NCBI RefSeq assembly: GCF_003194085.1
Contig: NZ_CP023994.1
Location: 1,240,001-1,304,000, forward strand
DNA: 64,000 nucleotides
Source of the DNA: Aurantimicrobium photophilum
GTDB taxonomy: Bacteria > Actinomycetota > Actinomycetes > Actinomycetales > Microbacteriaceae
Direction of reading: 5' to 3'
Shown here: positions 27,415 through 49,104 of the stretch, one piece after another
How the letters are laid out: each line of letters starts with the position of its first letter
Numbering within the stretch: the stretch's first letter is position 1
Translations under genes and position numbers: made by a program
The notes under the pieces: model-generated
What the model was told of the DNA's origin: nothing
The model's input: the letters and a program-made list of their open reading frames with translations, nothing else
The model's database searches: none

Positions 27415-27432
27415 CCGAGGTTGAGTGAAACA

Positions 27433-31041: not shown

Positions 31042-31080
31042 TTCGCACCCAAACAATCACTCATTCAACGGAGAATTTTG

Positions 31081-32151: not shown

Positions 32152-33674
32152 ATGCGGTAACTACCTCCGAAAAGATGGAAGCACCTTACGCAATTGAGGC
32201 GCACAACATTTTCAAACACTTTGACGGCGTGCACGCCCTGAGTGGGGTCAATCTATCGGTCAAGACCGGTGAAATCCACGCACTCTTGGGCGAAAACGGT
32301 GCGGGTAAGTCCACATTGGTCAAGGTCATCACCGGTATTTATGCCCCAGATTCTGGTGAAATCCGACGCAATGGTGACCCTGTTGAATTCAGTAGTGTTC
32401 GCATGGCTAATGCGGCAGGAATTGTGGCTCTCTACCAGGAGCTCTCCATCATCCCCTCAATTAGCGTTGCCGAAAATATCTTGTTGGGCGAGCAAACCCC
32501 CAGCAAGGCAGGCTTCGTCCAATGGTCCGCACTTCGAAAGAGAGCACAGGAGCAACTTGACCGCCTGAACCAAAAGATTCCCCTCAACAAGCTCGCTGGG
32601 GAGCTCTCTCCGGTGCAGCAGACGATGGTCGCCTTTGCTCGCGCGCTGGCAACTGATGCTCGTGTGCTCATTTTGGATGAGCCCACCGCATCGTTGACGG
32701 ACACCGAAATCAGAGATCTCTTTGCCGTGCTCCGCAAGTTGCGCGACCAGGGTGTGGCCATTATTTATGTCTCACACCGCCTGGAAGAAGTCTTCGAGCT
32801 GTGTGACCGCCTCACCATCATGCGTAACGGCGAGACAATCATTTCGAAAAACGTTTCTGACTCCAACATTGACGAAGTCATCTCCACCATGGTGGGTCGT
32901 GACGCGGGCGAGCTGTACCCTGAACGCGGCACGGCAACAACAGAAATTGCGCTCACTGTTGAGGGTGTCAATGGTCGGCGAGTCAAAGACATCAGCTTTT
33001 CTGCCCACAAGGGTGAAGTTCTCGGAATTGGCGGTCTTGCCGGATCAGGTCGTAGCGAGTTGCTCCGCATCCTTGCTGGCGCGCAAAAGCACACGTCCGG
33101 AGTCGTCACAATTGGTGATGTTGAACTTCCCGGCTCACCTGGAGTGAACCGTGCACTCGATGCTGGAATCGCGTTGGTACCAGAAGAACGCCGCAGTCAG
33201 GGCGTGATTTTGAGCGCATCCATTCGTGACAACATTGCGCTTGCCAATATCCCTGCCGTGAGCTCGTTAGGCCTCGTTTCGGGAAACAAGATCACCTCTC
33301 TAACCGAGAACGGGATCAAAAACCTGCAGATCAAGGCACGCAATCAACGTCAAACAGTTGGCCAGCTGTCGGGCGGAAACCAACAAAAGGTCGTTCTGGC
33401 CAAGATGTTGGCCCGGAAGCCCAAGGTTCTGCTGATGGATGAGCCCACCCGAGGTATTGATGTGGGAACAAAGGCAGAAATCTATCGCCTTATCCGCGAG
33501 CTTGCTGCCGGTGGCACAACCATCATCGCAGTGAGTTCAGAGTTACCTGAACTCATCGGGATGAGCGACCGAATTCTCATCATGCACGAAGGCCATATTT
33601 CAGGCGAGGTCCAAGCTGACATCGCGAACGACGAACTTCTTCTGTCCTACTGCTACGGAAAGGCAACAAAATAA
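32148..33674 (+). CDS. Ribose-type sugar ABC transporter, double ATPase
   Basis: 508 aa, two fused ATPase domains like RbsA/MglA. First domain: Walker A GENGAGKSTLVKVI, Walker B VLILDEPTASLTD. Second domain: degenerate Walker A GLAGSGRSELLRIL, full signature LSGGNQQKVVLAKML and VLLMDEPTRGIDVGTK. This asymmetry is usual for the family. It powers import with the permease and binding protein encoded next. Confidence 0.93.
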   Translation: MNAVTTSEKMEAPYAIEAHNIFKHFDGVHALSGVNLSVKTGEIHALLGENGAGKSTLVKVITGIYAPDSGEIRRNGDPVEFSSVRMANAAGIVALYQELSIIPSISVAENILLGEQTPSKAGFVQWSALRKRAQEQLDRLNQKIPLNKLAGELSPVQQTMVAFARALATDARVLILDEPTASLTDTEIRDLFAVLRKLRDQGVAIIYVSHRLEEVFELCDRLTIMRNGETIISKNVSDSNIDEVISTMVGRDAGELYPERGTATTEIALTVEGVNGRRVKDISFSAHKGEVLGIGGLAGSGRSELLRILAGAQKHTSGVVTIGDVELPGSPGVNRALDAGIALVPEERRSQGVILSASIRDNIALANIPAVSSLGLVSGNKITSLTENGIKNLQIKARNQRQTVGQLSGGNQQKVVLAKMLARKPKVLLMDEPTRGIDVGTKAEIYRLIRELAAGGTTIIAVSSELPELIGMSDRILIMHEGHISGEVQADIANDELLLSYCYGKATK

Positions 33675-34642
33675 TGACGAAAACCAGTACCGGACGTATT
33701 ACTGGAACCGCAATCGGTAGGACTCTTCTCCAGGGCGGAACAGTTATTGCACTGATTGTCCTTATTGGATTCTTCTTTGCTATGAGGCCTGACATCTTCC
33801 TCACCTTTGTCAACGTGAAGAACATTATGTATCAGGTGTCCATCCTGGCCATCATTGCCGGCGCTCAAACAATTGTGATGGTTTTGGGCGACTTCGACCT
33901 ATCTGTTGGGGCAACTTCTACACTTGCCGGTGCTGTCGCTGGCGCGCTCATGATTGGGGGCACACCAGTCCCTGTTGCCATAGCAGCAGCACTAGTAGTT
34001 GGTTTGATTGTCGGCCTCATCAATGGTGTCCTCATTGCCTATCTCAACCTGTCTGCGTTCGTTGCAACACTGGCCACCATGACCTCGGTCATCGGTGTGG
34101 CATTCATCGTGACTGAAGGAACCACACTCTTCAACTTCCCTGCAGAATTCAACGAACTAGGACAGGGAAAGATTTTCAATGTTCCCCTTCCTGTCTACTT
34201 CGCGATTGTGGTTTCCGTGCTGATTTGGGCCCTGCTGAAATTCACCACAATTGGTCGAAGCTGGCACGCCATTGGTGGAAACGTAGAAGTTTCACGTCTT
34301 TCTGGCGTCAAGGTTCGTCGTGCTCGACTCATGGCATTCACCATCGCAGGTGTCGTTGCCGCATTTGGCGGTGTGCTGCTTGCAGCCCGACTTGGCAGTG
34401 CCAGCGCAGTACAAGGTAGCGACAACACGCTTCTATCTGTTGCCGCCGTCTTCCTAGGCATGACCGTCATCAAGTCAGGTATGTCAAACCTCGGAGGCAC
34501 CATGGTCGGCGTGGGAATCATCGGCGTGATGAGCAATGGACTCAACATCCTGGGCGTCAATGCCTACGTTCAGCAGGTGGTCACCGGCGTGATCATCATT
34601 CTGGCAGTGACACTGTCAGGCCTCAAGACTCGTGAGAGATAG
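33674..34642 (+). CDS. Ribose-type sugar ABC transporter, permease
   Basis: 322 aa, RbsC-like with 8-10 hydrophobic segments. Typical motifs: MVLGDFDLSVGATSTLAGAV and NGVLIAYLNLSAFVATLATM, and GRSWHAIGGNVEVSRLSGVK near residue 195. One-base overlap (TAATG) with the ATPase gene. It forms the channel of the importer. Confidence 0.93.
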   Translation: MTKTSTGRITGTAIGRTLLQGGTVIALIVLIGFFFAMRPDIFLTFVNVKNIMYQVSILAIIAGAQTIVMVLGDFDLSVGATSTLAGAVAGALMIGGTPVPVAIAAALVVGLIVGLINGVLIAYLNLSAFVATLATMTSVIGVAFIVTEGTTLFNFPAEFNELGQGKIFNVPLPVYFAIVVSVLIWALLKFTTIGRSWHAIGGNVEVSRLSGVKVRRARLMAFTIAGVVAAFGGVLLAARLGSASAVQGSDNTLLSVAAVFLGMTVIKSGMSNLGGTMVGVGIIGVMSNGLNILGVNAYVQQVVTGVIIILAVTLSGLKTRER

Positions 34643-34729
34643 CTCGCTATTTCTCACGTGAAACCTGGGTTGGCTCAAGCCTTCTCGGTAACCCTAGAAA
34701 CAATCGCAATCACAACAAAGGAGTATGTA

Positions 34730-35707
34730 ATGCGTAACAAGTTCAAGTTACTGGTCGCAATGGCTGCTGTCGCAGCACTTGCTTTGACCGGTTGCGCCGC
34801 ATCAGGCGGTGGCGAAGCCGAAGACAAGCCTTTCAAGGTTATTGCCTTCACCTCCGGAAACCAGACACCTGTTGGTGCTTGGTGGGTCAAGGCAGTTACT
34901 GCCAAGGCTGAAGAGCTTGGTTGGGAACTCACCATGATTCAAGGTGACTTCGACTTCCAGAAGATGAACCCAGCTGTTGAAAGTGCAATTGCACAGGGTG
35001 CAGACGCAATTTTTGATGGTTACACCGACTACGCATCCATCAGCTCAATTACTGCTGCCGCTGCTGACGCTGGAATCCCCATCTTCGCAATGGACAGTGG
35101 TGTTGAACCTACCGATGCATTTGCAATCAACGTCACCACTGACCAGCAGGGCATCGTGGACAGCACCGTCGAAGCGCTCTCTACTCAGCTCGGTGGCCTC
35201 AAGGGCAAGAACATCATGGTTATCGGTCACGACCCACACGCTGGTATTCGTGAGCGTTCCGGACTTGCATTCGACGCTTTCAAGGCAGCTGGAGCAAACC
35301 TTGCTGGTGGCGAAATCCAGCAGGTACAGTCTCCTGCAACCGGTCGCACCGAGGCACTTGCACTCGTAGCTGACTACCTGGCAGCAAACCCTAACGGCCT
35401 GGACGCTGTTTGGGTTGGTTGGGATGACGCAGCACTGGGTGCATCCAAGGCCATCACCGAGGCAGGTTCTTCCGCCAAGGTAACTGGTGTTGACGCAACC
35501 AGCGAAGCTATTGCTGAAATCCAGGCTGAGGGCGCATTCCTCGCAACCATCGAACAGCCTTGGCCTTCGATCTTGGAAACCGTTATCGGCTACATGCTCG
35601 AATTCCAGAAGACCGGATCTCTGCCATCCTCGAACTTCGAGACCGTGGGTACCACCCTGGTTGACAAGGTCAACGCAGCAAAGATCACCCCTTCGGACAA
35701 GCTGTAA
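34730..35707 (+). CDS. Ribose-type sugar-binding lipoprotein
   Basis: 325 aa, type I periplasmic-binding fold. Lipoprotein signal with lipobox ALTGCAA near residue 20. The body shows GDFDFQKMNPAVESAIAQGA, DGYTDYASISSIT and the hinge segment AVWVGWDDAALGASKAI. AAAGGAG precedes ATG 34730 by seven bases; the longer open frame lacks a signal peptide. A strong hairpin follows the gene. Specificity within the ribose/xylose/apiose/polyol range cannot be told from sequence alone. Confidence 0.92.
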   Translation: MRNKFKLLVAMAAVAALALTGCAASGGGEAEDKPFKVIAFTSGNQTPVGAWWVKAVTAKAEELGWELTMIQGDFDFQKMNPAVESAIAQGADAIFDGYTDYASISSITAAAADAGIPIFAMDSGVEPTDAFAINVTTDQQGIVDSTVEALSTQLGGLKGKNIMVIGHDPHAGIRERSGLAFDAFKAAGANLAGGEIQQVQSPATGRTEALALVADYLAANPNGLDAVWVGWDDAALGASKAITEAGSSAKVTGVDATSEAIAEIQAEGAFLATIEQPWPSILETVIGYMLEFQKTGSLPSSNFETVGTTLVDKVNAAKITPSDKL

Positions 35708-35720
35708 AGCTCATCCACTA

Positions 35721-35755
35721 GCAGTGGGGGCGGGACAGTCCCCCGCCCCCACTGC
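35721..35755 (+). terminator. Strong intercistronic hairpin after the sugar-binding protein gene
   Basis: GCAGTGGGGGCGGG (35721-35734) pairs exactly with CCCGCCCCCACTGC (35742-35755), 14 bp, 7-nt loop. No T-run follows, so it probably protects the upstream mRNA 3' end or causes partial termination, which would raise binding-protein levels relative to the SDR and isomerase. Confidence 0.65.
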
Positions 35756-35804
35756 ACCCCTCACCAACTCCTCACCAACCACCATTTCTTAGAAAGTTCA
35801 ACTC

Positions 35805-36587
35805 ATGCGTTTAGAAGGCAAAGTCGCCATTATTACTGGTGGAGCTAGCGGTATCGGTCTCGCGACCGTCAAAAAGTTTGTGCGCGAAGGCGCAAAGGTT
35901 CTCATTGCCGACATCAACCTCGCTCAGGCTGAGGCAGCTGTTGCAGAAATCGACGCCCTGGGCTTCCCCGGCGCGACCGCAGCTGGTCAGGTCAATGTCT
36001 CTATCTATAAAGAGGTCGAAGCAGTCGTGGCACTCGCCGTGAAGACATTCGGCAAGCTCGACATCATCTTCAACAACGCCGGTATTGCTGGCGGTAAGCC
36101 ACTGCTGGATCACGACCCCGAGGTCGACTACATGCCCATGATCCGCGTTGACCAGGACGGTGTCTACTACGGCATCCTGGCTGCAGGTCGTCAGTTCCGT
36201 GACCAGGGCACCGGTGGTGTCATCATCAGCACCTCCTCGATCTATGGCGAGCAGGCAGCAGAGCTGGCCTTCTCCTACAGCGCAGCAAAAGCAGCGGTCA
36301 TTTCGTTCACTCGTTCAGCAGCATACGAACTGGCTGAGTATGGTGTCCGTGCCGTCGCCATCACTCCTGGCCGTGTGGGAACACCGATCATCAACCAGTT
36401 CAGTGACGAGCTCAAGACTCTGTTCGCATCTGAGCAGATGCGCAACAAGCTCACCCTGCCTGAAGAAATTGCAGACACCGTCGCCTTCTTGGCATCGGAT
36501 GAAGCCAATGCCATCAACGGAACTGTTGTTCACGTTGATGATGGCTACTCCGCTTTCAAGCAGCGCTTCGACCTGCCCTCGTTCTAG
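35805..36587 (+). CDS. SDR-family oxidoreductase (sugar operon)
   Basis: 260 aa classical short-chain dehydrogenase. NAD(P) motif ITGGASGIGLATVKKF (TGxxxGxG), NNAG in IIFNNAGIAGG, catalytic Ser in IISTSSIYGE and YxxxK in FSYSAAKAAVI. An Asp (VLIADINLA) after beta-strand 2 favours NAD over NADP. It lies in the sugar operon between the transporter and the isomerase and probably oxidises or reduces a sugar or polyol intermediate. Confidence 0.9.
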   Translation: MRLEGKVAIITGGASGIGLATVKKFVREGAKVLIADINLAQAEAAVAEIDALGFPGATAAGQVNVSIYKEVEAVVALAVKTFGKLDIIFNNAGIAGGKPLLDHDPEVDYMPMIRVDQDGVYYGILAAGRQFRDQGTGGVIISTSSIYGEQAAELAFSYSAAKAAVISFTRSAAYELAEYGVRAVAITPGRVGTPIINQFSDELKTLFASEQMRNKLTLPEEIADTVAFLASDEANAINGTVVHVDDGYSAFKQRFDLPSF

Positions 36588-36606
36588 TAGAGCCAAGGAG
36601 AGCCTC

Positions 36607-37479
36607 ATGACTTCCGCGAACCCCGTGGCATGCCTGATCAATGTCCTCATTGGTGATGCATCACCTGAGGCTCTCCCCAGCTCCCTCGATTCCCTCAAAA
36701 ACCTGGGCTACACCCACGTGGTGTTAGGCCCCATGGATCCTGCAACTCCTGACGCACCCGCCATCAAGCAACTCTTTGCTGAGCGTGGCCTCTCGCCCAT
36801 CACCATCTTCGGTGGACAGTCTCCCGAGACGTCTGTGGGCTCAGAAGACGCTGATGTTCGCGCGGCTGGCCTGGCAGCCATGAAGGCCACGGTGGATCTC
36901 ACGGTTGCCTTGGGCGGAACCCAAATGAACGGAGTTCCCTACGGAGTATTTGGTAAGCCAGATGCGCCAGCACCTTCCGGGTACTTTGCCCGCGCCGCCC
37001 GCGAAGTGGGCAAGGCTGCCGAATACGCTCATGATCGTGGCGTGACCATGACCTTCGAGGTCCTCAACCGTTACGAAACGTCTCTGATCAACACTGCAGT
37101 TCAGGCCATGGACTTCGCCGAGCTCAGCGAATCAGAACACCTCAAGATTCACCTCGACACCTTCCACATGTCCGTTGAAGAAGCAGACATGTTTGCGGCC
37201 ATTACGCACGCCCTTCCTCGCTTGGGATACCTCGAGTTAGGCCAGTCAGGACGTGGAAAACTCAGCACAGGTGTTGTTGATCCTGTTGCTGTCGTTTCTC
37301 ACGCGCTCAAATCCGGCTACACAGGACCTATTGGCGTGGAAGCCTTTACGCGCACAATTCTTCCCGGATTTGTGAGCGATGCTCTGGCTATCTGGCGTGA
37401 GCCCTACACCTCTGGCCTCTCCCTAGTCACGGAGGCGGCTGAGCTCATTGAGCAAGGTGTGCACGCCAGCAAGAACTAA
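36607..37479 (+). CDS. Sugar isomerase/epimerase, AP-endonuclease-2-like TIM barrel
   Basis: 290 aa, same superfamily as hydroxypyruvate isomerase, tagatose epimerase and IolE. Metal-site segments: MTFEVLNRYETSLINT (Glu), IHLDTFHMSVEEADM (Asp, His), YLELGQSGRGKLSTG and GPIGVEAFTRTIL (Glu). Starts at ATG 36607 with AAGGAG; the same frame stays open upstream inside the SDR gene, which is chance. It is the last gene of the sugar operon. It could isomerise the imported sugar or an erythrulose-type product. Confidence 0.87.
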   Translation: MTSANPVACLINVLIGDASPEALPSSLDSLKNLGYTHVVLGPMDPATPDAPAIKQLFAERGLSPITIFGGQSPETSVGSEDADVRAAGLAAMKATVDLTVALGGTQMNGVPYGVFGKPDAPAPSGYFARAAREVGKAAEYAHDRGVTMTFEVLNRYETSLINTAVQAMDFAELSESEHLKIHLDTFHMSVEEADMFAAITHALPRLGYLELGQSGRGKLSTGVVDPVAVVSHALKSGYTGPIGVEAFTRTILPGFVSDALAIWREPYTSGLSLVTEAAELIEQGVHASKN

Positions 37480-37550
37480 AGATTCAACCGCACCACATGA
37501 CTTACTTTCCCTCCACTAATGACCACTGAGACCGAAGATACGAGACGACA

Positions 37551-38579
37551 ATGAAGATCGGAATTCTTACCTCTGGGGGCGACTGCCCCGGATTGAATGC
37601 CGTCATTCGTGGCATCGTACTCAAAGGCTCAGAGGCTTATGGGTTCGACTTTGTCGGCTTCAAGCACGGCTGGCGCGGTGTCGTGGAGGGTAGCTTCATT
37701 CCTCTCGCAGAGGAACACGTGCGCTTCCTCGCTAACCAGGGTGGAACAATCCTGGGTTCCTCTCGCACCAACCCCTATGAGGGACCTTTTGGTGGCCCTG
37801 AGAACATCAAGCGCATGATGCTCAAGCACGGCATTGACGCCATCATCGCCATTGGCGGTGAGGGAACTCTTACTGCTGCACGTCGCCTCTCCGAAGAGGG
37901 AATCAACATCGTGGGGGTGCCCAAGACAATCGACAATGACATTCAGGAAACGGATTACTCATTCGGCTTCACCACAGCCGTGGAGATTGCCACCGATGCC
38001 TTGGACCGTATTCGCACCACTGCAGAATCACACGACCGCTGCATCATCGTGGAAGTCATGGGACGCTATGCAGGGTGGATCGCCCTCCACGCCGGCATGG
38101 CAGCCGGAGCAAATGCCATCTTGATCCCTGAGCACCCGGTCAGCTTGGGACAGATTGCCGAATGGGCACTCGAAGTCCGCGACCGTGGCAGTGCACCTGT
38201 ATTTGTCGTCTCTGAAGGCTTCACCCTCGAAGAGATGGATGAAGCCCACTCTCACAAGGGCCTGGACCCCTTCAACCGTCCCCTCCTGGGCGGCATTGCA
38301 GACATTCTTGCTCCCCAAATCGAAGCATTGACCGGGATTGAAACCCGTGCCGTGTCCTTAGGTCACGTTCAACGCGGTGGTGTTCCCAGCGCCTATGACC
38401 GTGTCCTGGCCACGCGCCTCGGCATTGCTGCCGTTGATGCCGCCCATGACGAACAGTGGGGTTCCACCGTCGTTCTCAAGGGAACAGACATTGAAACCGT
38501 GAGCTTGTCCTCGGCAACCCAGGAACCCAAGTCTGTCCCCGAATATCGTTACTACGAAGCCGCTGCCCTCTTTGGGTAA
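37551..38579 (+). CDS. pfkA: 6-phosphofructokinase, ATP-type
   Basis: 342 aa. Phosphorylates fructose 6-phosphate to fructose 1,6-bisphosphate. Motifs: GILTSGGDCPGLNAVIRG, the nucleotide-site GGEGT and VPKTIDNDIQETD with the catalytic Asp. Gly rather than Asp after the Glu in GGEGT points to ATP, while the Lys of PKTIDND is typical of the actinobacterial group that includes both ATP and PPi enzymes. It sits 71 bp after the sugar operon and 23 bp before the second ring-cleavage module, an odd place for a glycolytic gene. Confidence 0.9.
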   Translation: MKIGILTSGGDCPGLNAVIRGIVLKGSEAYGFDFVGFKHGWRGVVEGSFIPLAEEHVRFLANQGGTILGSSRTNPYEGPFGGPENIKRMMLKHGIDAIIAIGGEGTLTAARRLSEEGINIVGVPKTIDNDIQETDYSFGFTTAVEIATDALDRIRTTAESHDRCIIVEVMGRYAGWIALHAGMAAGANAILIPEHPVSLGQIAEWALEVRDRGSAPVFVVSEGFTLEEMDEAHSHKGLDPFNRPLLGGIADILAPQIEALTGIETRAVSLGHVQRGGVPSAYDRVLATRLGIAAVDAAHDEQWGSTVVLKGTDIETVSLSSATQEPKSVPEYRYYEAAALFG

Positions 38580-38602
38580 TCCCCCACACACAGGAGATCA
38601 CA

Positions 38603-38878
38603 ATGGAATTCCTCGTCAGATTTGAAATCAACCAGCCCGAATCCATGACCGCTGACGAGCGCGAGCGCCTGCGCGGAATCGAACGCGCACGCGCGATGGA
38701 ACTGCGCGAGCAGGGCATCCTCAAGCGCCTGTGGCGGGTACCTGGTCGCCGCGCAGTGGTGGGGCTGTGGGAAGCACCTGATGCCACTGCCCTGCATGAT
38801 GCCCTGGCTTCATTGCCCATGTTCCCCTGGATGGATGTGGACGTGGAAGCCCTCGCCACCCATCCTCAGGAGATGTGA
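38603..38878 (+). CDS. Muconolactone isomerase-like protein
   Basis: 91 aa ferredoxin-like fold of the CatC/muconolactone delta-isomerase family (MEFLVRFEINQPESM, RARAMELREQGILKRLWRVP, LFPWMDVDVEALATHP-type ending). AGGAG precedes the ATG. True muconolactone isomerases act in the ortho-cleavage beta-ketoadipate pathway, which is not present here, so this copy probably handles another lactone or is a structural relative. It overlaps the next gene, a LigA-like subunit (TGATG). Confidence 0.85.
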   Translation: MEFLVRFEINQPESMTADERERLRGIERARAMELREQGILKRLWRVPGRRAVVGLWEAPDATALHDALASLPMFPWMDVDVEALATHPQEM

Positions 38879-39231
38879 TGTCAAGTAAACCTGTTGTTGA
38901 AGGAACCTACGTTTTCGGCATTGAAGACAACCGTCGCGGTTATGCCCTGAACAAACTATGTTCCACATTCACCTCTGCCGAGAACCGTCAGCTCTTTCAA
39001 GATGATGAAGCCGGCTATTGCGACAAGTTTGATCTCACTCCTGAACAGCGCACGGCCATTCTGGAGCGTGACTGGGTGAAGATGCTTGACCTCGGTGGAT
39101 CCATTTTCTACATCTTCAAACTGGCACAACTAGATAAGAAGTCTGTCCAGTATCTGGGCGGGATCTTCACCGGCATGAGCACCGAAGAGTTCATTGCTGA
39201 GCTCAAAGCAGGAGGTCGACACTTTGGCTGA
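38878..39231 (+). CDS. LigA-like extradiol dioxygenase alpha subunit, second copy
   Basis: 117 aa, clearly related to LigA (GYALNKLCSTFTSAENRQLF, DLTPEQRTAILERDW, KMLDLGGSIFYIFKL) but shorter and diverged from the protocatechuate enzyme's subunit at 14432-14830. ATG 38878 has AGGAG five bases ahead; a GTG one codon earlier is less likely. It pairs with the LigB-like gene that follows with an 8-base overlap. Natural ring substrate unknown. Confidence 0.87.
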   Translation: MSSKPVVEGTYVFGIEDNRRGYALNKLCSTFTSAENRQLFQDDEAGYCDKFDLTPEQRTAILERDWVKMLDLGGSIFYIFKLAQLDKKSVQYLGGIFTGMSTEEFIAELKAGGRHFG

Positions 39232-40078
39232 GATTATCTGGGGCCTGGCCACCAGCCACGTTCCCTCCATTGGCGCCGCCATGGACAACGCAAAGACCCA
39301 CGACGACTACTGGAGCCCCCTCTTTGACGGCTACCAGCCCGCTCGTGATTGGATGGCGCACCACACCCCTGACGTTGTGTTGATTGTTTATAACGACCAC
39401 GCCAACGCCATCGACCTGGATTTGATGCCCACTTTCGCGATTGGCACCGCATCCCACTTCCCCGTCGCAGACGAAGGATGGGGACCTCGCCCCGTTCCAC
39501 CAGTTTTAGGACACCCTGACTTAGCCACCCACTTAGTGGAGTCGTTGATTGATGAAGAATTTGATATCACTGTGGCCAACCAACTCCAAGTGGATCACGG
39601 CTTGACCGTACCTTTATCTGTCTACACACCTGAGCCAGGAGATGCGTGGCCCTGTCCCGTCATTCCGGTTTTGGTGAACGTACTGCAATACCCGCAGCCG
39701 ACCGCCAAGCGCTGCTACGCCCTCGGCCAGGCCATTGGTCGAGCCATTCAGTCCTACCCCGACAACATTAAGGTCGCTATCTTCGGCACTGGTGGCATGT
39801 CTCATCAGCTCTCTGGTGAACGCGCCGGGTTGATTAATGAAACTTTCGACCGGATGTTCTTGGAGAAGATTCAAACTGACCCCCAAGCCCTAACCCAGAT
39901 TTCACGTGAGGAATATATCCGTGAAGCAGGCTCCGAAGGCATTGAATTGATTATGTGGCTCGTCATGCGCGGTGCCATGAATTCCAGCATTACTCGTATT
40001 ACGGAGACCTACCACGTCCCTGCATCTAATACCGCAGCAGCGTTAGCCCTGTTTGAGAACTCGGAGAGCCCCTCATGA
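39224..40078 (+). CDS. LigB-like extradiol dioxygenase beta subunit, second copy
   Basis: 284 aa class III extradiol dioxygenase. The predicted iron ligands and catalytic His are kept: TSHVPSIG, YNDHANAI, GTGGMSHQLSG and EAGSEGIELIMW. TTG at 39224 has AGGAGG eight bases upstream and gives the family start LAEIIWGLATSHVP; an earlier ATG has no support. It is not a simple duplicate of LigB, since many substrate-loop positions differ. Together with its LigA-like partner it should cleave a catecholic acid other than, or besides, protocatechuate. Confidence 0.88.
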   Translation: MAEIIWGLATSHVPSIGAAMDNAKTHDDYWSPLFDGYQPARDWMAHHTPDVVLIVYNDHANAIDLDLMPTFAIGTASHFPVADEGWGPRPVPPVLGHPDLATHLVESLIDEEFDITVANQLQVDHGLTVPLSVYTPEPGDAWPCPVIPVLVNVLQYPQPTAKRCYALGQAIGRAIQSYPDNIKVAIFGTGGMSHQLSGERAGLINETFDRMFLEKIQTDPQALTQISREEYIREAGSEGIELIMWLVMRGAMNSSITRITETYHVPASNTAAALALFENSESPS

Positions 40079-40785
40079 CCACATTTGTCCTCGTTCACGG
40101 CGCATGGCACGGCGGCTGGTGCTGGGGTCGCGTAGCCCCCCAGCTACGTGCCGCAGGCCACACTGTCTTCACCCCGTCCCTCACCGGTCTCAGTGACCGC
40201 GCCCACCTCATTTCACCTTCGGTGAACCTGAGCACCCACGTTGAGGACATCGTGCGCATGCTCGACGCTGAGGACCTCACAGATGTGGTTCTCGTCGGCC
40301 ACAGCTACGCCGGCATGGTGATTAGTGGCGTTGCAGAGCAACGCCCAGAACGCCTACGCCTGCGCGTTCACCTCGACGGCTTCCTGCCCGAAAACGGCGA
40401 AGCAGCCATCGACATCCTCCCTGATGTCCCTGCTTCCCACTACCGAGAAGCAGTCAAGGGTCCCGGCTTCGGTTGGATGATCCCACCACGTTCACTCGAG
40501 AAGCTTGGCGTGACCGACCAGGCTGACATTGACTGGCTCACCCCACGCCTGACGCCACAGCCCTTTGGCACTTACTGGGAGAACATTGTGCTCACTGAGG
40601 CCTCAGAGTCAGTTGCCGGCGTCTATATCGAGTGCGTGGACTGGATGCGTGTCTTCACGCGCTTTGCGGAGCGTGCAGCTGCCAAGGGCTGGCCCACTTA
40701 TGAGTTGGCCACCTGCCATGAGGCTATGGTCACTGCACCCAAGGAACTCCTCGAGATGCTCCTTGAGATTGACGCTAGGCACTGA
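40075..40785 (+). CDS. Alpha/beta hydrolase, hydroxynitrile lyase/esterase-like
   Basis: 236 aa. Oxyanion segment LVHGAWHGGWCWGRV, nucleophile elbow GHSYAG (about residue 78), Asp around residue 190 and His in TCHEAMVTAP. This pattern resembles plant hydroxynitrile lyase/methylesterase-like and bacterial salicylate-ester esterases. It overlaps the LigB-like gene (ATGA), so it likely hydrolyses an ester, lactone or C-C bond in the same pathway. Confidence 0.85.
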   Translation: MTTFVLVHGAWHGGWCWGRVAPQLRAAGHTVFTPSLTGLSDRAHLISPSVNLSTHVEDIVRMLDAEDLTDVVLVGHSYAGMVISGVAEQRPERLRLRVHLDGFLPENGEAAIDILPDVPASHYREAVKGPGFGWMIPPRSLEKLGVTDQADIDWLTPRLTPQPFGTYWENIVLTEASESVAGVYIECVDWMRVFTRFAERAAAKGWPTYELATCHEAMVTAPKELLEMLLEIDARH

Positions 40786-40851: not shown

Positions 40852-42309
40852 CTAGCGCTTGCGGTGAATGGACTTCATGCGCGTGTATGCACCAATGGCC
40901 TCAGGGCCATATTCCATACCGATGCCGGAGTCTTTCCAGCCACCAAATGGGGCAGCCAGGTTAGAACCATAGAAGTTGATACCAACCGAACCTGACTCAA
41001 TACGACGAGCCAATTCAGCACCATGGTTGGGATCTTCCGTGAAGATCGAGCCACCTAAACCAAAGGGAGAATCATTGGCAATGTTGACGGCGTCGTTTTC
41101 ATCCTCAAAAGGAATGACCACGAGGACAGGGCCAAATATCTCTTCCCGTGCCACACGCATCTGGTTGTTCACATCAGCAAAGACAGTGGGCTTGTTGTAG
41201 TAACCACGGGTAATACCCTCTGGCATTCCCGATCCACCCACAGCAACACGTGCGCCTTCTTCTTGACCAATACGGATGTAGTCGGCAACAGTGGCGGCCT
41301 GCTTCTTCGATGCAGAGGGACCGTAAACCGTTGCAGGGTCGAAGGGGTCACCGATAACGGTGTTGCCCACCACGGTCGCAACAGCATCGACAACATCGTT
41401 GTAGATGGAGCGAGGAGCCAAGATGCGAGTGGAGTTGTAGCAGGTCTGTCCCGTGTTGCGCAAGCAGGTGCGGTTGAGCATCGAGGCAAAGTAGTCCAGG
41501 TTGGCATCCGGAAGCACGATGCTTGCGGACTTTCCACCAAGCTCAAGGGTGACAGGGCGTAAGAGGCGTCCGCACTGCTCAGCGAGAAGGCGTCCCACAC
41601 CAGTGGAACCGGTGAAAGCAACCTTGGCCACGAGTGGGTGCTCCACTAGTGCGCCGACGACATCGCGGCCACAGGTGATGAGGTTGAGAACACCTTCAGG
41701 AATTCCAGCAGCCTGTGCTGATTCCATCAGAATGCGCAGATCCAGTGGAGTCTCCGAGGCAGGCTTGATCACGACGGTGCAGCCAGCGATGAGTGCTGGA
41801 GCGAGCTTGACCATGACAAGTGCAACAGGGAAGTTCCAGGGCGCAATGAGTGCTGCCACACCACGAGGCTGGCGAACCACCTCAGTGAACTGGTCTTCCA
41901 CGCCAGGGAAAGGACGCTGGTCGATCTGGTCGACGTAGTCGGCAAGGCCTGCGTAGTAGCGCAGAAGCTTGCCCGCGTGACCGGCAGCCTGACGGGTTTC
42001 GGTGATACCGGTACCGTTTTCGCTGGTGATGATCATCGCCAGACGCTCTGCGCGGGCTTCAAACTCTTCGGCCAGGCGAATCATCATGGCAGCACGAGCT
42101 GGTGCCCCGATGTCACTCCAGCCGGTGCCGCGGAATGCGCGCGAGGCCGCCTGAACGGCAGCGTCAATGTCCTCAACGTTAGAGGCGGGGACAGCTCCCC
42201 AAATTTCTTCGGTGGAAGGATCAACAATCTCGATCTTTTTGTCGGAGCGAGACTTTACCCAGTCACCGTTGATGAAGTTATCGTCGTGGTATTCCTCGAG
42301 CGTGGTCAT
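40852..42309 (-). CDS. creC: Aldehyde dehydrogenase of the alkylphenol cluster (CreC-like)
   Basis: 485 aa NAD(P)-dependent aldehyde dehydrogenase. Blocks: ALIAPWNFPVALVMVKLAPA, KVAFTGSTGVGRLLAEQ, TLELGGKSASIVL (Glu), NTGQTCYNSTRIL (Cys) and APFGGWKDSGIGMEYG. ATG 42309 has AAGGAC before it. By synteny with the cre genes of Corynebacterium glutamicum it should oxidise 4-hydroxybenzaldehyde to 4-hydroxybenzoate. It is the last gene of the minus-strand cluster. Confidence 0.85.
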   Translation of the reverse strand: MTTLEEYHDDNFINGDWVKSRSDKKIEIVDPSTEEIWGAVPASNVEDIDAAVQAASRAFRGTGWSDIGAPARAAMMIRLAEEFEARAERLAMIITSENGTGITETRQAAGHAGKLLRYYAGLADYVDQIDQRPFPGVEDQFTEVVRQPRGVAALIAPWNFPVALVMVKLAPALIAGCTVVIKPASETPLDLRILMESAQAAGIPEGVLNLITCGRDVVGALVEHPLVAKVAFTGSTGVGRLLAEQCGRLLRPVTLELGGKSASIVLPDANLDYFASMLNRTCLRNTGQTCYNSTRILAPRSIYNDVVDAVATVVGNTVIGDPFDPATVYGPSASKKQAATVADYIRIGQEEGARVAVGGSGMPEGITRGYYNKPTVFADVNNQMRVAREEIFGPVLVVIPFEDENDAVNIANDSPFGLGGSIFTEDPNHGAELARRIESGSVGINFYGSNLAAPFGGWKDSGIGMEYGPEAIGAYTRMKSIHRKR

Positions 42310-42316
42310 GATGTCC

Positions 42317-42979
42317 TTACTGAATGACGTCGAGCTTGAGCAGTTCAATAGAGCGGGCAAGCTCTACTTCTGCAATGGCACGTGCTTCGGGGGTGATTAG
42401 CTGGCCATAGATGGTGTCCTCTAAGCGCAGGCGAATCTCTTGAGGAGTCTTGCCAAACCAGAGAGCCGAGAAGGCCATACCGGTGGGCTGGAAGCGCCAC
42501 AGGCGATCAGCATCACGCATGATGGCATCTTCGATGCCGTCATGATTGGGGTCAGTGTCGTGACCGTCAATGATCTTGCAGACAGCTTCGACAACTTCTT
42601 CGCTATATCCGAGTGGAGGCAAGACCTCGCGGGCAATGTTGCATCCTTCAATTTCATGCAGAACACGAACGTCTGACTGCATCGCGTTTTCGCTCCGGAA
42701 ACCCTCGGAGATGATGCGGTCTTCGTCAACGCGAGCCCAGCCAGTGTCGTGGAGAAGGATTGCCAGACGTGTCACGAGTGAATCTGCCTCGGGGTGGTGA
42801 TCCAGCAGCAACTCGGCAAAGTTGAAGGACAGCGGCAAGTGAATGTCGTTAGCGCGGGTGCGCAGGTAGGGGCGAACGGCCACCCAGACGGCGTCGAGGT
42901 TTTCCCATTCGCCACGTGGGCTTGCTCCGTTAGCCAGAGTGGGGATGTCACCGAGGACATGCGTGTATTCCATAGTCAT
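42317..42979 (-). CDS. creD: HD-domain phosphohydrolase (CreD-like)
   Basis: 220 aa. HD-superfamily metal ligands: His in NDIHLPLSF, the HD pair in LAILLHDTGWARV, a further His in IIDGHDTDPNH and Asp in IMRDADRLWRF. In C. glutamicum CreD removes the phosphate from oxidised aryl phosphates after the P450 step. It sits between creC and creE, as expected from gene order. A second HD protein with similar motifs is encoded at 45357-46070. The ATG at 42979 lacks a strong ribosome site; a start two codons later is possible. Confidence 0.82.
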   Translation of the reverse strand: MTMEYTHVLGDIPTLANGASPRGEWENLDAVWVAVRPYLRTRANDIHLPLSFNFAELLLDHHPEADSLVTRLAILLHDTGWARVDEDRIISEGFRSENAMQSDVRVLHEIEGCNIAREVLPPLGYSEEVVEAVCKIIDGHDTDPNHDGIEDAIMRDADRLWRFQPTGMAFSALWFGKTPQEIRLRLEDTIYGQLITPEARAIAEVELARSIELLKLDVIQ

Positions 42980-42986
42980 TTTTCTT

Positions 42987-44231
42987 TTACGCTTCCCCGC
43001 CCGTAATGAGCGTTTTGAGAGGAATGGAGGAGTCTGCTGCCGCATCAGCAGGGATGTTTGCCCCTGCATTGAGTGCGCGGCGAACGGCCATGTAATCACT
43101 GACGTCGTTGACAGCGTCGATGGCCAACAGGGAACCGTTCTTGTAATAGAGAACGGAGAACTTGTCCGCGGCCTGATCACCACGAATCACGGTCTGGTCA
43201 TATCCGGAGGAGAGCCCAGCAATTTGGAGCTTCAAATCTGCTTGGTCTGACCAGAACCACGGAACAGCACGATATGCCTCGCGCTGACCCATCAGAGTCT
43301 TGGCGGCAATCTTGGCTTGGTCCACTGCGTTCTGCACTGATTCCAAACGAACAGTGCCTTCGTGGCCCAGCGGGTGAGGCAAAATCACGGCGTCACCGGC
43401 AGCCACCACGTTGGGGTTGGAGGTCTCGGCATATTCGTTCACCACGATGACGCCGTCTTCCATCTCGAGAGCGAGCTGGTCAGCGAGTTCACCGCGAGCG
43501 GTCACGCCGATACCCACCATGACGATGTCAGCAGGAACGACAGAACCATCAGCCAGCTGAACACCTGTGACTTTGCCGGCATCTCCAATGAGGTGTGAAA
43601 CCTGAGCGTTGAGGTGAACGGTAGTGCCACGCTTTTCGTGAGCTGCCTTGTAAAAGTCGCTAACAATGGGTGACACTGCACGGCCCATCAGGCGAGTGCC
43701 GGACTGCAAGACGGTAACGTTCTTGCCCGCTTTTTGTGCGACAGCAGCTACTTCAAGACCAATGAAGCCACCGCCAAGAACGACGACATTGTTGATGGAA
43801 TCCCAGCGCTGCTTGAGCTCTTTGGCATCGTCGAGGTGGCGCATGTAGAGCACACCATCTAGATCTGCACCATCAACCTTGAGCTTGCGAGGATCTGCAC
43901 CCGGAGTCAAAGCGAGCCTGTCGAACTCGTATGTTTTGCCCGAGCTACCCTTAGCAATTCCGCCGCCAGGACCAAACTCCACGTGCACAATCTGTTCACC
44001 GGTGACCACGCCAATGTTGTTTTCAACATAGAAGTGTTCGTTGCGGAACTCCAAAGATTCTTCATCCATCTCGCCGGCAAGATATGCCTTCGATAGTGGT
44101 GGGCGCTGGTAGGGAGCATATGCTTCCTCACCCACAATGGTGACATCACCGACATAGCCTTCGTCGCGCAGCGACGAGGCTATTTGCATGCCGGCTTGTC
44201 CGGCACCGATGATGAGAATCTTTTCCTTCAT
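42987..44231 (-). CDS. creE: Ferredoxin reductase for the P450 (CreE-like)
   Basis: 414 aa FAD-dependent pyridine-nucleotide oxidoreductase of the putidaredoxin-reductase type. FAD motif ILIIGAGQAGMQIASSLRDE (residues 4-23), NAD motif VVLGGGFIGLEVAAVA, and second FAD motif NVVAAGDAVILPH. ATG 44231 begins MKEKILIIG. It passes electrons from NADH to the adjacent 2Fe-2S ferredoxin for CreJ. Confidence 0.9.
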   Translation of the reverse strand: MKEKILIIGAGQAGMQIASSLRDEGYVGDVTIVGEEAYAPYQRPPLSKAYLAGEMDEESLEFRNEHFYVENNIGVVTGEQIVHVEFGPGGGIAKGSSGKTYEFDRLALTPGADPRKLKVDGADLDGVLYMRHLDDAKELKQRWDSINNVVVLGGGFIGLEVAAVAQKAGKNVTVLQSGTRLMGRAVSPIVSDFYKAAHEKRGTTVHLNAQVSHLIGDAGKVTGVQLADGSVVPADIVMVGIGVTARGELADQLALEMEDGVIVVNEYAETSNPNVVAAGDAVILPHPLGHEGTVRLESVQNAVDQAKIAAKTLMGQREAYRAVPWFWSDQADLKLQIAGLSSGYDQTVIRGDQAADKFSVLYYKNGSLLAIDAVNDVSDYMAVRRALNAGANIPADAAADSSIPLKTLITGGEA

Positions 44232-44236
44232 GATGA

Positions 44237-44557
44237 CTACTGCTTGGGAGCGATTCGAACCTTGAGGCCGTCGAGCTCTGCACACATCTTGATCTGGCAG
44301 GACAGGCGAGAAACGGGGAGACGCTCGGACTCAGCACCGTCGAGCATGTCATCTTCGAGGTCAGAAACTTCGCCGGCAGCACCAACGAAAGCCTCATCAA
44401 CATAGACGTGGCAGGTTGCGCAGGAGCATGCTCCACCACATTCAGCAACGATGCCCTTGACGCCGTTCTTCACAGCGATTTCCATGACGGAATCACCGTC
44501 ACGAGCTTCGAGGGTGGTCTCAGTTCCGTCGGGGGAAATGTAAGTTACGTTCGGCAT
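44237..44557 (-). CDS. creF: 2Fe-2S ferredoxin, adrenodoxin type (CreF-like)
   Basis: 106 aa. Cluster ligands Cys40, Cys46, Cys49 (CGGACSCATC) and Cys87 (RLSCQI), the spacing of vertebrate-type/putidaredoxin-like ferredoxins. GAGAG precedes the ATG. It shuttles electrons from the reductase encoded directly downstream to the cytochrome P450 of the cluster. Confidence 0.93.
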   Translation of the reverse strand: MPNVTYISPDGTETTLEARDGDSVMEIAVKNGVKGIVAECGGACSCATCHVYVDEAFVGAAGEVSDLEDDMLDGAESERLPVSRLSCQIKMCAELDGLKVRIAPKQ

Positions 44558-44595
44558 GTGTCTCTCCTGTTTTATGTTTCTGTCTCTGAAAAGTT

Positions 44596-45357
44596 TTAGA
44601 TGAATTGCTTGCCGCCATCGACCACGAGGGTCTGGCCGGTGATGTAACCGGACTGTTCGCCGGCAAGGAAAATAGCGGTTCCCACGATGTCTTCGGGCTG
44701 GCTGGCACGCTTGATAGCACCGCGGTCCACGCCATAGGTCTCGGCGTCTTCCATCAGGCTCAAGCTGGCTTCAGTCAGGGTAAATCCTGGAGCAATGGCA
44801 TTGACGGTGACGCCCTGTGGGCCCACTTCACGAGCCATCACACGGGTCATGCCGATCACGGCGCCCTTGGACGCGACGTAGTGCATCCACAGTGGCGAAC
44901 CGCTGAAGACAGTTGCGGAGGCAATGTTCACAATGCGACCACCAGGCTGAGCCATCTTGGGATAAACCGAGGCTGAACACAGCCACGCGCCCTTGACGTT
45001 CACGTTCATGACGCGATCCCATTCTGCAGGGTCAATCTCGGTGAAGGGCTTGCGGGTCAGCGTTGCATAGATGGCTGCGTTGTTGATGAGCACATCAATA
45101 CGTCCAAACGCATCCAGAGCAGCTTGGGCCAGAGCATCCGTGGATTCTTTGCTGGTGACATCGACCTTAACGGCAATGGCTTTCGCACCAGATGCATTCA
45201 GCATCGAGGCGGTTTCTTCCACGCCTGCCTGGTCAATATCGGCCACAACGAGCTGGGCGCCTTCGGCAGCGAACCCCTGAGCAAAGGCACGACCTAAGCC
45301 ACCGGCTGCGCCGGTGACAATGACAACTTTGCCGTCAAACTGTGGTGAAGCACCCAT
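44596..45357 (-). CDS. creG: SDR alcohol dehydrogenase (CreG-like)
   Basis: 253 aa classical SDR. VIVTGAAGGLGRAFAQGFAA (NAD motif), VVADIDQAG (Asp favours NAD), VLINNAAIYAT, Ser in VNIASATVFSG, and MHYVASKGAVIGM (YxxxK). The ATG at 45357 overlaps the stop of the upstream HD gene (TAATG). By synteny it oxidises 4-hydroxybenzyl alcohol to 4-hydroxybenzaldehyde. Confidence 0.87.
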   Translation of the reverse strand: MGASPQFDGKVVIVTGAAGGLGRAFAQGFAAEGAQLVVADIDQAGVEETASMLNASGAKAIAVKVDVTSKESTDALAQAALDAFGRIDVLINNAAIYATLTRKPFTEIDPAEWDRVMNVNVKGAWLCSASVYPKMAQPGGRIVNIASATVFSGSPLWMHYVASKGAVIGMTRVMAREVGPQGVTVNAIAPGFTLTEASLSLMEDAETYGVDRGAIKRASQPEDIVGTAIFLAGEQSGYITGQTLVVDGGKQFI

Positions 45358-46070
45358 TAGGCGACATCCTCTCGGGTGTAAGTGTGAGCAATTTCTTCGC
45401 TGAAATCCATGCATGCCGTAGTCACAAGTACTCGGGACATGGCCTTTGCTTGGTCAGTGAAAAGTTCGTTATACGCGCGGTAGGCACACAACCGCAGGGA
45501 TTGTTCAGCATCAATGCCAAACCAGTCCATCACGACGCGACGGCCGTGAGGAGTGACGCGCCAGACCTTGTCTGAGTCCTTAACCAGGGCGTCATTGGTG
45601 TTGATGGTGACCAGACGAGTGTCGTGGCCATCAATGATGTCCACGATCTGCACGATGTCTTCTTCAGGAACACCGACCTGCTCGAGGATTTCCCGCGCAA
45701 TGCGTGCACCCTCTTTTTCGTGCTGAATGATCAAGTGGCGCAGAGAGTCATCTGCTCCGGGAGCAATGGCTTCCAGCGCTAAACGCTCATCGACCGTGGA
45801 CCAACCCGTGTCGTGGAGAAGTATTGCGGGAAGCACGATGTTTTCATCAGCTTCAGGAATCTGGGAGAGCAGTGCTTGTGCGATCGAATACGCATAGAGG
45901 CTGTGCGCATCGTTATCGCGGGTGCGAAGGAAATCCTTCGCAAGGGACCAAATCGCCCCATCCCGCTCGTTCAGTTCAATCATCCCGGGGACTCGCGATG
46001 CGTCCGGAATCTTTCCGGTGACATCGCGGCCCAGGTGATTGACAACTGGTGAGTGGGATGGGGTCGACAT
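45357..46070 (-). CDS. Second HD-domain phosphohydrolase-like protein in the cre cluster
   Basis: 237 aa, clearly paralogous to the CreD-like protein (shared RDNDAHSLYAYSIAQALL/ILLHDTGWSTVDERL pattern, VDIIDGHDTRLV and a late Asp in VKDSDKVWRV). All HD metal ligands appear intact, so it is probably active. AAGGA precedes the ATG at 46070. It lies between creH and creG and is translationally coupled to creG; the Corynebacterium cluster, as I recall it, has only one HD gene. A different phosphoester substrate is a likely explanation. Confidence 0.85.
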   Translation of the reverse strand: MSTPSHSPVVNHLGRDVTGKIPDASRVPGMIELNERDGAIWSLAKDFLRTRDNDAHSLYAYSIAQALLSQIPEADENIVLPAILLHDTGWSTVDERLALEAIAPGADDSLRHLIIQHEKEGARIAREILEQVGVPEEDIVQIVDIIDGHDTRLVTINTNDALVKDSDKVWRVTPHGRRVVMDWFGIDAEQSLRLCAYRAYNELFTDQAKAMSRVLVTTACMDFSEEIAHTYTREDVA

Positions 46071-46095
46071 GGTTTATTCCTTAGTGGCTGCTTAC

Positions 46096-47943
46096 TTAGC
46101 CAATGATTTCGACGGTACCGTTCGAGCCATCGACTCGAAGCTTCATACCGGTCTTGATCTTGGTGGAAGCAGACCCGGTACCGGTGACGGCGGGAAGGCC
46201 GTACTCACGGCAAACGATAGCCGCGTGGCTCATCATTCCACCGATGTCGGTCACCGTTGCGCTGATCTTGCCGAAGACAGGTCCCCAGCTAGGTGCGGTC
46301 ACAGGAGCAACAAGGATTTCACCTTGCTGGAGCTGGTCGAGCTCCTCTGGTCCCATGATGACGCGTGCCTTACCCTCAACAACACCGGGGGATGCTGCCA
46401 TACCCTTGAGCTGGTTGGGGTCGCCCTCGTCGCCGCCAAGCCACTGCTGAACCTGCTCGGTGGTGATACCCCAGAGCATGATGGTGAATGGCTCGTTGAT
46501 CTCTGCGGGAGGCTCGTTGAATGCAGGCTCGGGGCGTGCAGTCATCAGGGCGTCCACGATCTTGCGACGACGCTCGATCTCCTGTGGCCAGTAGGTAGGT
46601 GCGATGCAGTCAGCGCCAACACCCCAACCGGTTGCGAGGTCGAAGAGTACGGGACGTACTTCGTCGCGGGTCAGGTAGAGCATGTCATCTGGCTCAGTCC
46701 AGAAGCCGTAGCTGTGGAGCAAACGAGACAGCTGACGAACCTTGCGCCAGAAGACGCCCATGGTCCAGTGCTCAATGTAGAAGTTGTGGTCTTCTACGTA
46801 GGGGTACACGGTGCGTGCAAGACCGAGCTTGCCGTTGAAAGTCTCGAGGGCTTCGCCGTCGAGAAGTTCAGCGTATTCACCGGTGATACGGTCGCGCTCT
46901 GCAATGAGTGCATCCTTGGGGCGGTGAAGCTGCTCGCCCTTGGCTGCGCGGACAACGTAGTCCTGGATGTAACCCATAGGCAGATCGAGGTTGTCACGCC
47001 AGTAGACGTCAGAACCGTAGAAACCGTTACCGCTGGTGTAGTTGAACCAAGGCTCCTGAGCCTTCTCCCATGCAGCAATCCACTTCTTGCCGTCTGCAGA
47101 GCCTGCGAGTTCAGCAAGGGTTCCTGCTGCGTCGAGGTTCATAGCGAAGACAGCGGTGAGGTTGTGCTTCACAGCGAGGTCAGCGAGGTCCTTGAGCTCG
47201 TCATCGGGACGGAAGAGAACCGAGTCCACACCCATCACCATCTTGGCGATAGCCAAGTCAGGGATGCCGGGGAAGGATTCCTTGCAGAAGCCGAAGAAGT
47301 CGAGGTACGCGACGTATCCCAGGTTCAGGAACTCGAAGTGGTGCTCCCAGTTCTTGTATGCCAGCTGAATCAGACGGTCGTAGTCAGCCATCATCTTGGC
47401 GGTGGGGTCAATACCAGCACCGCTGGTGATGACCTCGATGTCAACCATGTCTGGGAGAGCTTCGAAGTTGATAGCGTCCATCTCTTCGATGGTTGCAAGA
47501 ACCTTCTTCTTCCAGTTCTCCAGGAGGGAATCCCAGTTCTGGAAGTAGAAACCAGCGCGCTCCATGAAGTGAGGGACGCGGTCGCCGATGAGCTCAGGTG
47601 CAACAGCAACAGGGCTCATGTAGCAGAAGCCGTTGTGGATGCGGAACTCAATACCGTTTGCGGGAGGAATGATGTAGTGGCGAGTGTTGTACGCACCGAG
47701 GCAGCGAACGGCGAACTCGACACCGACGGTCTCGAATGGCTTGAACACGTTGGGCCAGTGCTGCGAGTCGCAGAACCAGAACTTGGAGTTTTCCTTGTCC
47801 TTCAGGTTGTCCTGGAAGACGAGGTTGTATGGGTAGAGGTCTTGCCAACCTTCAGCACCCTTGGGTGCTGGCAGGTCATAAGGCGAGACGAAGCTCTTGC
47901 GAGCGGCGCTTGGCGTCATTGCTTTTGCCTTCTTTCCGAACAT
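46096..47943 (-). CDS. creH: Aryl phosphate synthase, phosphohistidine subunit (CreH-like)
   Basis: 615 aa, related to the central part of PEP synthase and to the large subunit of phenylphosphate synthase. The phosphocarrier His573 is near the C-terminus in DIGGMMSHAAIVCREYGLPA; the PEP-binding TIM barrel of PEP synthase is absent. With the ATP-binding subunit encoded upstream it should transfer phosphate from ATP to an alkylphenol (4-methylbenzyl phosphate synthase, CreHI). AAAGG precedes the ATG. Which of the letters H and I names which subunit is from memory of the Corynebacterium system. Confidence 0.85.
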   Translation of the reverse strand: MFGKKAKAMTPSAARKSFVSPYDLPAPKGAEGWQDLYPYNLVFQDNLKDKENSKFWFCDSQHWPNVFKPFETVGVEFAVRCLGAYNTRHYIIPPANGIEFRIHNGFCYMSPVAVAPELIGDRVPHFMERAGFYFQNWDSLLENWKKKVLATIEEMDAINFEALPDMVDIEVITSGAGIDPTAKMMADYDRLIQLAYKNWEHHFEFLNLGYVAYLDFFGFCKESFPGIPDLAIAKMVMGVDSVLFRPDDELKDLADLAVKHNLTAVFAMNLDAAGTLAELAGSADGKKWIAAWEKAQEPWFNYTSGNGFYGSDVYWRDNLDLPMGYIQDYVVRAAKGEQLHRPKDALIAERDRITGEYAELLDGEALETFNGKLGLARTVYPYVEDHNFYIEHWTMGVFWRKVRQLSRLLHSYGFWTEPDDMLYLTRDEVRPVLFDLATGWGVGADCIAPTYWPQEIERRRKIVDALMTARPEPAFNEPPAEINEPFTIMLWGITTEQVQQWLGGDEGDPNQLKGMAASPGVVEGKARVIMGPEELDQLQQGEILVAPVTAPSWGPVFGKISATVTDIGGMMSHAAIVCREYGLPAVTGTGSASTKIKTGMKLRVDGSNGTVEIIG

Positions 47944-48024
47944 GGGGTGGTGCCTTTCTCATCGTCGAGATTGGTGGAACAGGGGGTGGATCTGTGGTGC
48001 AGGTGGTGCCTTGTTGGTGAGGCT

Positions 48025-49095: not shown

Positions 49096-49104
49096 GGTTT
49101 TCCC

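Follow-up and report, generated by a model that had tools for sequence, protein, structure and literature searches.

A four-gene module of Aurantimicrobium photophilum probably encodes the central steps of a linear route for syringate that runs through 3-O-methylgallate. It lies in a 64,000-nt stretch of contig NZ_CP023994.1 (positions 1,240,001 to 1,304,000; referred to as the window) and comprises MI (a muconolactone-isomerase-family protein), LigA2 and LigB2 (the two subunits of an extradiol dioxygenase), and ABH (an alpha/beta hydrolase). The following account of the substrate, the sequence of reactions, and the part played by MI is our inference. VanAB (24640-26762) would take one methyl group off syringate to give 3-O-methylgallate, the ring of which would be opened by LigA2B2 to yield the methyl ester CHMOD. 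ABH, acting as a Ser-His-Asp methylesterase, would convert CHMOD to 4-carboxy-2-hydroxymuconate (CHMA) and methanol ahead of cyclisation to the pyrone PDC, and MI would shift a proton (or rotate a double bond) in CHMA, or in one isomer of CHMOD or CHMA, to form 4-oxalomesaconate. From there, pyruvate and oxaloacetate would be reached through the LigU-, LigJ-, and LigK-type enzymes that the nearby lig operon encodes.

The gene identities, overlaps, catalytic residues, clade structure, linkage, and co-occurrence were all computed. The four genes are real genes that span 38603-40785 and overlap stop-to-start, with the joint sequences TGATG (MI/LigA2), TTGGCTGA (LigA2/LigB2), and ATGA (LigB2/ABH); the start of LigA2 is more likely the ATG at 38878 than the alternative GTG at 38875 (Table 1). 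The original prediction, which placed four overlapping genes from position 37551 onwards, was right about the overlaps of these four genes and wrong about the start, where the gene for 6-phosphofructokinase begins; that gene ends 23 bp before MI without overlap. Phosphofructokinase was rejected as a member of the module, being absent from its side outside the host genus, and it closes the upstream sugar operon. The same prediction had described a second ring-cleavage unit that stands apart from the lig operon, retains the full set of LigB metal ligands, and has partners foreign to the protocatechuate 4,5-pathway, all of which was borne out. Its list of candidate substrates included 3-O-methylgallate, the one proposed here. 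The module and the protocatechuate lig operon lie on opposite strands, with the distance between them given as 25 kb.

The closest studied pathway is that of Pseudomonas sp. NGC7, in which VanA1B1, MgaAB, the alpha/beta hydrolase MgaC, and the SnoaL-like MgaD take syringate through 3-O-methylgallate, CHMOD, and CHMA to oxalomesaconate; deletion of mgaC leads to a build-up of PDC, and MgaC prevents the lactonisation of CHMOD to PDC (PMC12314914). The module shares with mgaABCD the two-subunit LigAB-like dioxygenase, the alpha/beta hydrolase, the small isomerase, the tie to VanAB, and a linear route in which PDC hydrolase is unneeded (PMC12314914). It differs in its isomerase, which belongs to PF02426 and not to the SnoaL-like family of MgaD, in its gene order and host phylum, and in the folate-dependent demethylase found with many of its relatives. 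Since the cast of the module is that of NGC7 except for the isomerase family, the roles of LigA2B2, ABH, and MI were assigned accordingly, as predictions. In Novosphingobium, 3-O-methylgallate is converted to CHMOD, which then cyclises non-enzymatically to PDC, and DesC and DesD of Novosphingobium aromaticivorans are the proposed CHMOD enzymes, predicted to form oxalomesaconate by ester hydrolysis and isomerisation; the setting differs, the routes of sphingomonads being branched and involving LigI as well as the DesA/LigM demethylases (PMC8091115).

LigA2B2 is a LigAB-type class III extradiol dioxygenase with separate LigA and LigB domains and His/His/Glu iron ligands. The iron ligands His12, His59, and Glu241 and the acid/base residues His125 and His194 of LigB2 are invariant in alignment A3 and align with His12/His59/Glu239 and His124/His192 of DesB, respectively. 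LigB2 scored 408 bits with NF009903 (cut-off 317) and matched the beta subunit of SYK-6 LigAB (PDB 1b4u), with which it shares family, iron ligands, and acid/base residues, at an E-value of 3.5e-108. LigA2 fell below the cut-off of the protocatechuate 4,5-dioxygenase alpha equivalog TIGR02792 (95.1 bits versus 108.6) and has Val, not Phe or Tyr, at position 103. The specificity of SYK-6 LigAB is set by Phe103 of its alpha subunit, which controls the use of C5-substituted substrates; variants with Val, Leu, Thr, or His at this position are still active, and some raise the turnover of gallate and 3-O-methylgallate (PMC10094722). The aligned residue is Tyr in LigA1, Val in LigA2, and Met in nearly all module orthologues, with one Leu. 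The LigB tree groups LigB2 with sequences from genomes that carry the ABH-MI pair, in a clade of 31 members (support 100/99) that is distinct from LigB1 and SYK-6 LigB, and the module is without protocatechuate-operon partners. Residue 103, the clade, and the gene linkage point indirectly to LigA2B2 being a 3-O-methylgallate dioxygenase.

In an alternative route, syringate would lose both methyl groups to VanAB, and LigA2B2 would open the resulting gallate to CHMA, which MI would tautomerise; ABH would serve to release gallate, or the methyl ester of gallate, from plant esters. The job of MI would be unchanged, position-103 changes in LigA also help gallate (PMC10094722), and VanAB of Streptomyces NL15-2K is reported, in a passage citing that work in PMC9867520, to form some gallate from syringate. 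In contrast, VanAB of Rhodococcus ruber stops at 3-O-methylgallate (PMC9867520), and gallate-specific DesB carries Glu377 at the LigA-103 position (PMC3962378), where the module enzymes have Val, Met, or Leu. LigA2B2 also differs from the gallate dioxygenases DesB and GalA in being two subunits instead of one fused chain, and it scored 323 bits with NF009904, short of the 412 of that model. An esterase would be unneeded after cleavage of gallate, yet ABH is fixed beside MI and LigAB. We regard the gallate route as unlikely.

The preferred route through 3-O-methylgallate assigns ABH to the methyl ester. The predicted fold of ABH was confident (pLDDT 96.8), and its top Foldseek matches were a Paenibacillus SABP2-like esterase, tobacco SABP2 (a methyl salicylate esterase), MES16, and polyneuridine aldehyde esterase, with E-values of 1e-18 to 1e-16 for the SABP2-like esterases. 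The likeness extends to the fold and the Ser-His catalytic pair, and methyl ester hydrolysis, the reaction proposed for ABH, is a common reaction of the SABP2/MES family; ABH differs in being about 25% identical, bacterial, and operon-bound and in having its probable acid after strand 6. Ser77, His215, and the probable acid Asp101 are present in 27 of 27 module sequences in the alignment, among which the site after strand 7 varies. The catalytic Ser, His, and acid, together with the link to an O-demethylase and LigAB, are as expected for the MgaC/DesC role, and ABH is predicted to be a CHMOD methylesterase. A scan of viral contigs returned only weak, unrelated hydrolases.

The original prediction had envisaged a cleavage product that lactonises and is then opened. 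In such a route, a lactone such as PDC would form, MI would shift its double bond, and ABH would open it, in the manner of CatC and PcaD of the 3-oxoadipate pathway. MI is indeed a CatC-family protein, ABH is an alpha/beta hydrolase, and CHMOD cyclises to PDC without an enzyme (PMC8091115); moreover, the PDC hydrolase LigI was found within about 10 kb of 0 of 41 module loci, so that ABH could in principle replace it. These points are outweighed by the SABP2-type fold of ABH, which scored only 20.5 bits with the PcaD enol-lactonase model TIGR02427 (cut-off 255.9), by the lack of an evident shift for MI in a pyrone, by the LigI-type protein that the genome already has, and by the analogous MgaC, which acts to prevent the formation of PDC from CHMOD (PMC12314914). 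ABH was rejected as an enol-lactonase or haloalkane dehalogenase on model scores and fold. The lactonising route was not supported and is judged quite improbable, being less likely than the linear syringate route.

MI belongs to the muconolactone isomerase superfamily (PF02426, ferredoxin-like fold, Glu27). Its best Foldseek matches were ClcF (3zo7) and 1mli, with a TM-score of about 0.9 to ClcF and CatC, and its invariant Glu27 is the residue replaced by Ala in 3zo7, a structure of ClcF with bound substrate. However, MI is about 37% identical to CatC and ClcF and scored 87.5 bits with the CatC equivalog TIGR03221, below the cut-off of 130.6, and it is partnered with LigAB and an esterase instead of with catechol enzymes. 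It was rejected as the CatC of a catechol pathway on this score, on these partners, and because it is the sole muconolactone isomerase in the genome. MI matches PF02426 only and lacks the SnoaL-like NTF2 domain of the MgaD type. For the linear route, MI is predicted to be a CHMA tautomerase or a geometric isomerase of CHMOD or CHMA.

The original prediction had also called for a comparison of the neighbourhoods of homologues. In the analysis, 84,980 species genomes were scanned with the ABH alignment, whole-genome searches were added, and the relatives were read by tblastn with known queries. ABH and MI form a gene pair conserved across Actinomycetes, usually less than 150 bp apart, which recurs with LigAB, O-demethylase, aldolase, and hydratase genes; LigA2 and LigB2 homologues occur in most of these loci. 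Module loci were found in Streptomyces, Nonomuraea, Lentzea, Prauserella, Saccharomonospora, Arthrobacter, Klenkia, Blastococcus, Modestobacter, Micromonospora, Planosporangium, Demequina, Pseudonocardia, and others, and the closest named ABH relative, of Aurantimicrobium minutum MWH-Tana7, is 94% identical, with synteny from transketolase to ABH. Within about 10 kb, a DesA/LigM-like folate aminomethyltransferase or a VanA-type Rieske oxygenase was present at 23 of the 41 module loci and at none of 47 control loci, which carry more distant ABH relatives without MI (p = 2e-10). The corresponding counts were 21/41 and 0/47 for the CHA aldolase and 25/41 and 0/47 for LigJ-type or PIG-L-type hydratase homologues, some of the LigJ matches being weak (23-26%). 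The GalB hydratase is a PIG-L protein. Common descent of the loci, and the origin of most controls in other phyla, make the p-values overstate independence; more telling is that demethylases of two unrelated types turn up repeatedly at the module loci. The clearest case was plasmid pRop44186_a of Rhodococcus opacus DSM 44186, on which the genes for an aminomethyltransferase, methylenetetrahydrofolate reductase, purU, folD, LigA, LigB, ABH, and MI lie in one run. This aminomethyltransferase scored best with the NCBI syringate O-demethylase model (566 bits, cut-off 800), followed by the vanillate/3-O-methylgallate model (520 bits, cut-off 580); since both scores are below the cut-offs, it is DesA-like and not a confirmed DesA.

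The neighbourhoods also bear on whether another methoxylated catechol, such as 3-methoxycatechol from syringol, is cleaved and its methyl ester processed by MI and ABH. Cleavage of 3-methoxycatechols next to the methoxy group does yield a methyl ester, and a cytochrome P450 and a reductase stand beside the module in three Blastococcus loci. The same loci, however, carry the folate demethylase type too, the linked demethylase scores best as a syringate O-demethylase, and the aldolase, tautomerase, and hydratase that are linked to the module are enzymes for carboxylated intermediates. This reading appears very improbable.

Co-occurrence was consistent with the syringate route. In an order-level sample of about 395 genomes, excluding that of A. 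photophilum, LigB was present in 9 of 9 genomes with a close MI versus 14 of 386 others, and MI was present in all four genomes with LigB2 at an identity of at least 69%. Among eight genomes of the genus, all have a LigB1-like LigB and two have VanAB; LigB2 and a close MI occur in the same two genomes and in none else (p = 0.036). Vanillate requires just VanAB and LigAB1, and thus the extra module fits a second methoxylated acid, syringate.

Several points weigh against the route through 3-O-methylgallate. Hydroxynitrile lyases and methylketone synthases are also among the SABP2-like folds near ABH, LigAB variants at position 103 work on gallate too, and MgaC, MgaD, DesC, and DesD were likened to ABH and MI by description, not by sequence. 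More than one-third of the 41 module loci are without a close LigB2 beside MI, and the Demequina relatives carry a protocatechuate-type LigB only. In the window, VanAB lies 12 kb from the module and outside its operon, and the module sits directly behind a sugar operon. No folate O-demethylase was found beside the module in the host genome, both GCV_T proteins of which lie outside the window.

Variants of the module were seen in other genomes. A Microbacteriaceae metagenome-assembled genome (L060, 3398-4368) carries the MI-ABH pair without LigAB, between two aldehyde dehydrogenases and VanAB, in a cluster 61-83% identical to the cluster at 22422-28923 of the window; the sole LigB found there is protocatechuate-like and may serve both substrates. 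Nonomuraea longispora and Phytoactinopolyspora (L065, 7186-10690; L071, 2737-11053) have a third LigAB type with about 50% identity and Ile at LigA-103, accompanied by ABH and a folate demethylase, which suggests another substrate variant. In a Xanthobacteraceae metagenome-assembled genome (L129, 3593-6950), an ABH-like hydrolase (44%) lies within a LigI-ABH-LigA-LigB-LigC operon and is perhaps a proteobacterial CHMOD esterase. The LigB2 homologue of Pseudonocardia sp. CNS-139 (L160) appears as two overlapping matches (query 1-185 and 183-280) and is frameshifted or misassembled.

The host is a very small bacterium of fresh water that belongs to the Microbacteriaceae, and the genome that holds the window is a single contig of 1.75 Mb. 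The sugar operon upstream of the module (29201-38579, plus strand) contains a split transketolase, a Zn-alcohol dehydrogenase, a ribose-type ATP-binding cassette transporter, a short-chain dehydrogenase/reductase (SDR), a TIM-barrel protein, and phosphofructokinase. A scan for promoters and terminators returned sites no commoner than in shuffled sequence. A transposase (integrase core, HTH_21; 11181-12032, minus strand) adjoins the lig operon and is a possible trace of mobility. The minus-strand region 40852-50331 encodes an aldehyde dehydrogenase, two HD-domain proteins, a ferredoxin reductase, a ferredoxin, an SDR, phosphoenolpyruvate-utilising and PPDK-N proteins, and a P450, and past its end lies an IclR regulator (50476-51252); we take the region to resemble the cre cluster (p-cresol, phosphorylated alkylphenol) of Corynebacterium glutamicum. 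With the query set used, no copy was found at the matching place in A. minutum MWH-Tana7 (L059).

Table 1. Genes of the predicted syringate module and related features of the window.
Feature	Position	Strand	Match and remarks
MI, muconolactone-isomerase-family protein	38603-38878	+	PF02426, E 4.5e-32; proposed CHMA (or CHMOD) isomerase/tautomerase
LigA2, alpha subunit	38878-39231	+	PF07746, E 4e-32; proposed 3-O-methylgallate dioxygenase
LigB2, catalytic beta subunit	39224-40078	+	PF02900, E 9e-76; TTG start; proposed 3-O-methylgallate dioxygenase
ABH, alpha/beta hydrolase	40075-40785	+	Abhydrolase_6 PF12697, E 4.5e-18; proposed CHMOD methylesterase
6-phosphofructokinase	37551-38579	+	PF00365, E 2.4e-99; outside the module
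VanA, Rieske O-demethylase oxygenase	24640-25755	+	PF19112 VanA_C; proposed syringate/vanillate demethylase
VanB, reductase partner of VanA	25743-26762	+	Fer2, NAD-binding, and FAD-binding domains
Protocatechuate lig operon	12634-18512	-	LigC-like, LigB1, LigA1, LigI-like, LigJ-like, oxalomesaconate tautomerase, and CHA aldolase genes
LigB1, protocatechuate 4,5-dioxygenase	13587-14432	-	NF009903, 448 bits
LigA1, partner of LigB1	14432-14830	-	TIGR02792, 173 bits, above cut-off; Tyr at position 103
LigI-type protein	14833-15720		In lig operon
LigJ-type amidohydrolase, shared lower-pathway hydratase	15717-16751	-	PF04909; about 60-70% identical to genes called LigJ in relatives
4-Oxalomesaconate tautomerase (LigU/GalD type), shared lower pathway	16733-17899	-	NF033377, 525 bits versus cut-off 440
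CHA aldolase (LigK/GalC type), shared lower pathway	17829-18512	-	TIGR02798, 309.7 bits versus cut-off 304.5

The idea of a new route stands in part: the pathway type is already known, and its enzyme make-up is new. In the full-text literature searched, from which most subscription journals fall outside, no muconolactone-isomerase-family protein was named for syringate or 3-O-methylgallate breakdown, and no Actinomycetes gene set was found for the post-demethylation steps of syringate; because of that scope, this absence is weak evidence. What appears new is a widespread actinobacterial enzyme set that includes a muconolactone-isomerase-family member. We lean slightly towards the view that a PF02426 enzyme acting on open-chain CHMA or CHMOD is the standard actinobacterial finish of 3-O-methylgallate cleavage, and that a single step of syringate catabolism was filled separately from unrelated families, PF02426 in the module and the SnoaL-like MgaD in Pseudomonas.

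Much of hardwood lignin is made up of syringyl units. The genes by which syringate is broken down have been described in sphingomonads and, from 2025 on, in one Pseudomonas. The module offers a testable gene set in Streptomyces, Rhodococcus, Arthrobacter, and many others, in which uncharacterised proteins receive specific predicted functions. A deletion of ABH is suggested as a way to have syringate build up as PDC, a plastic monomer, in such strains.

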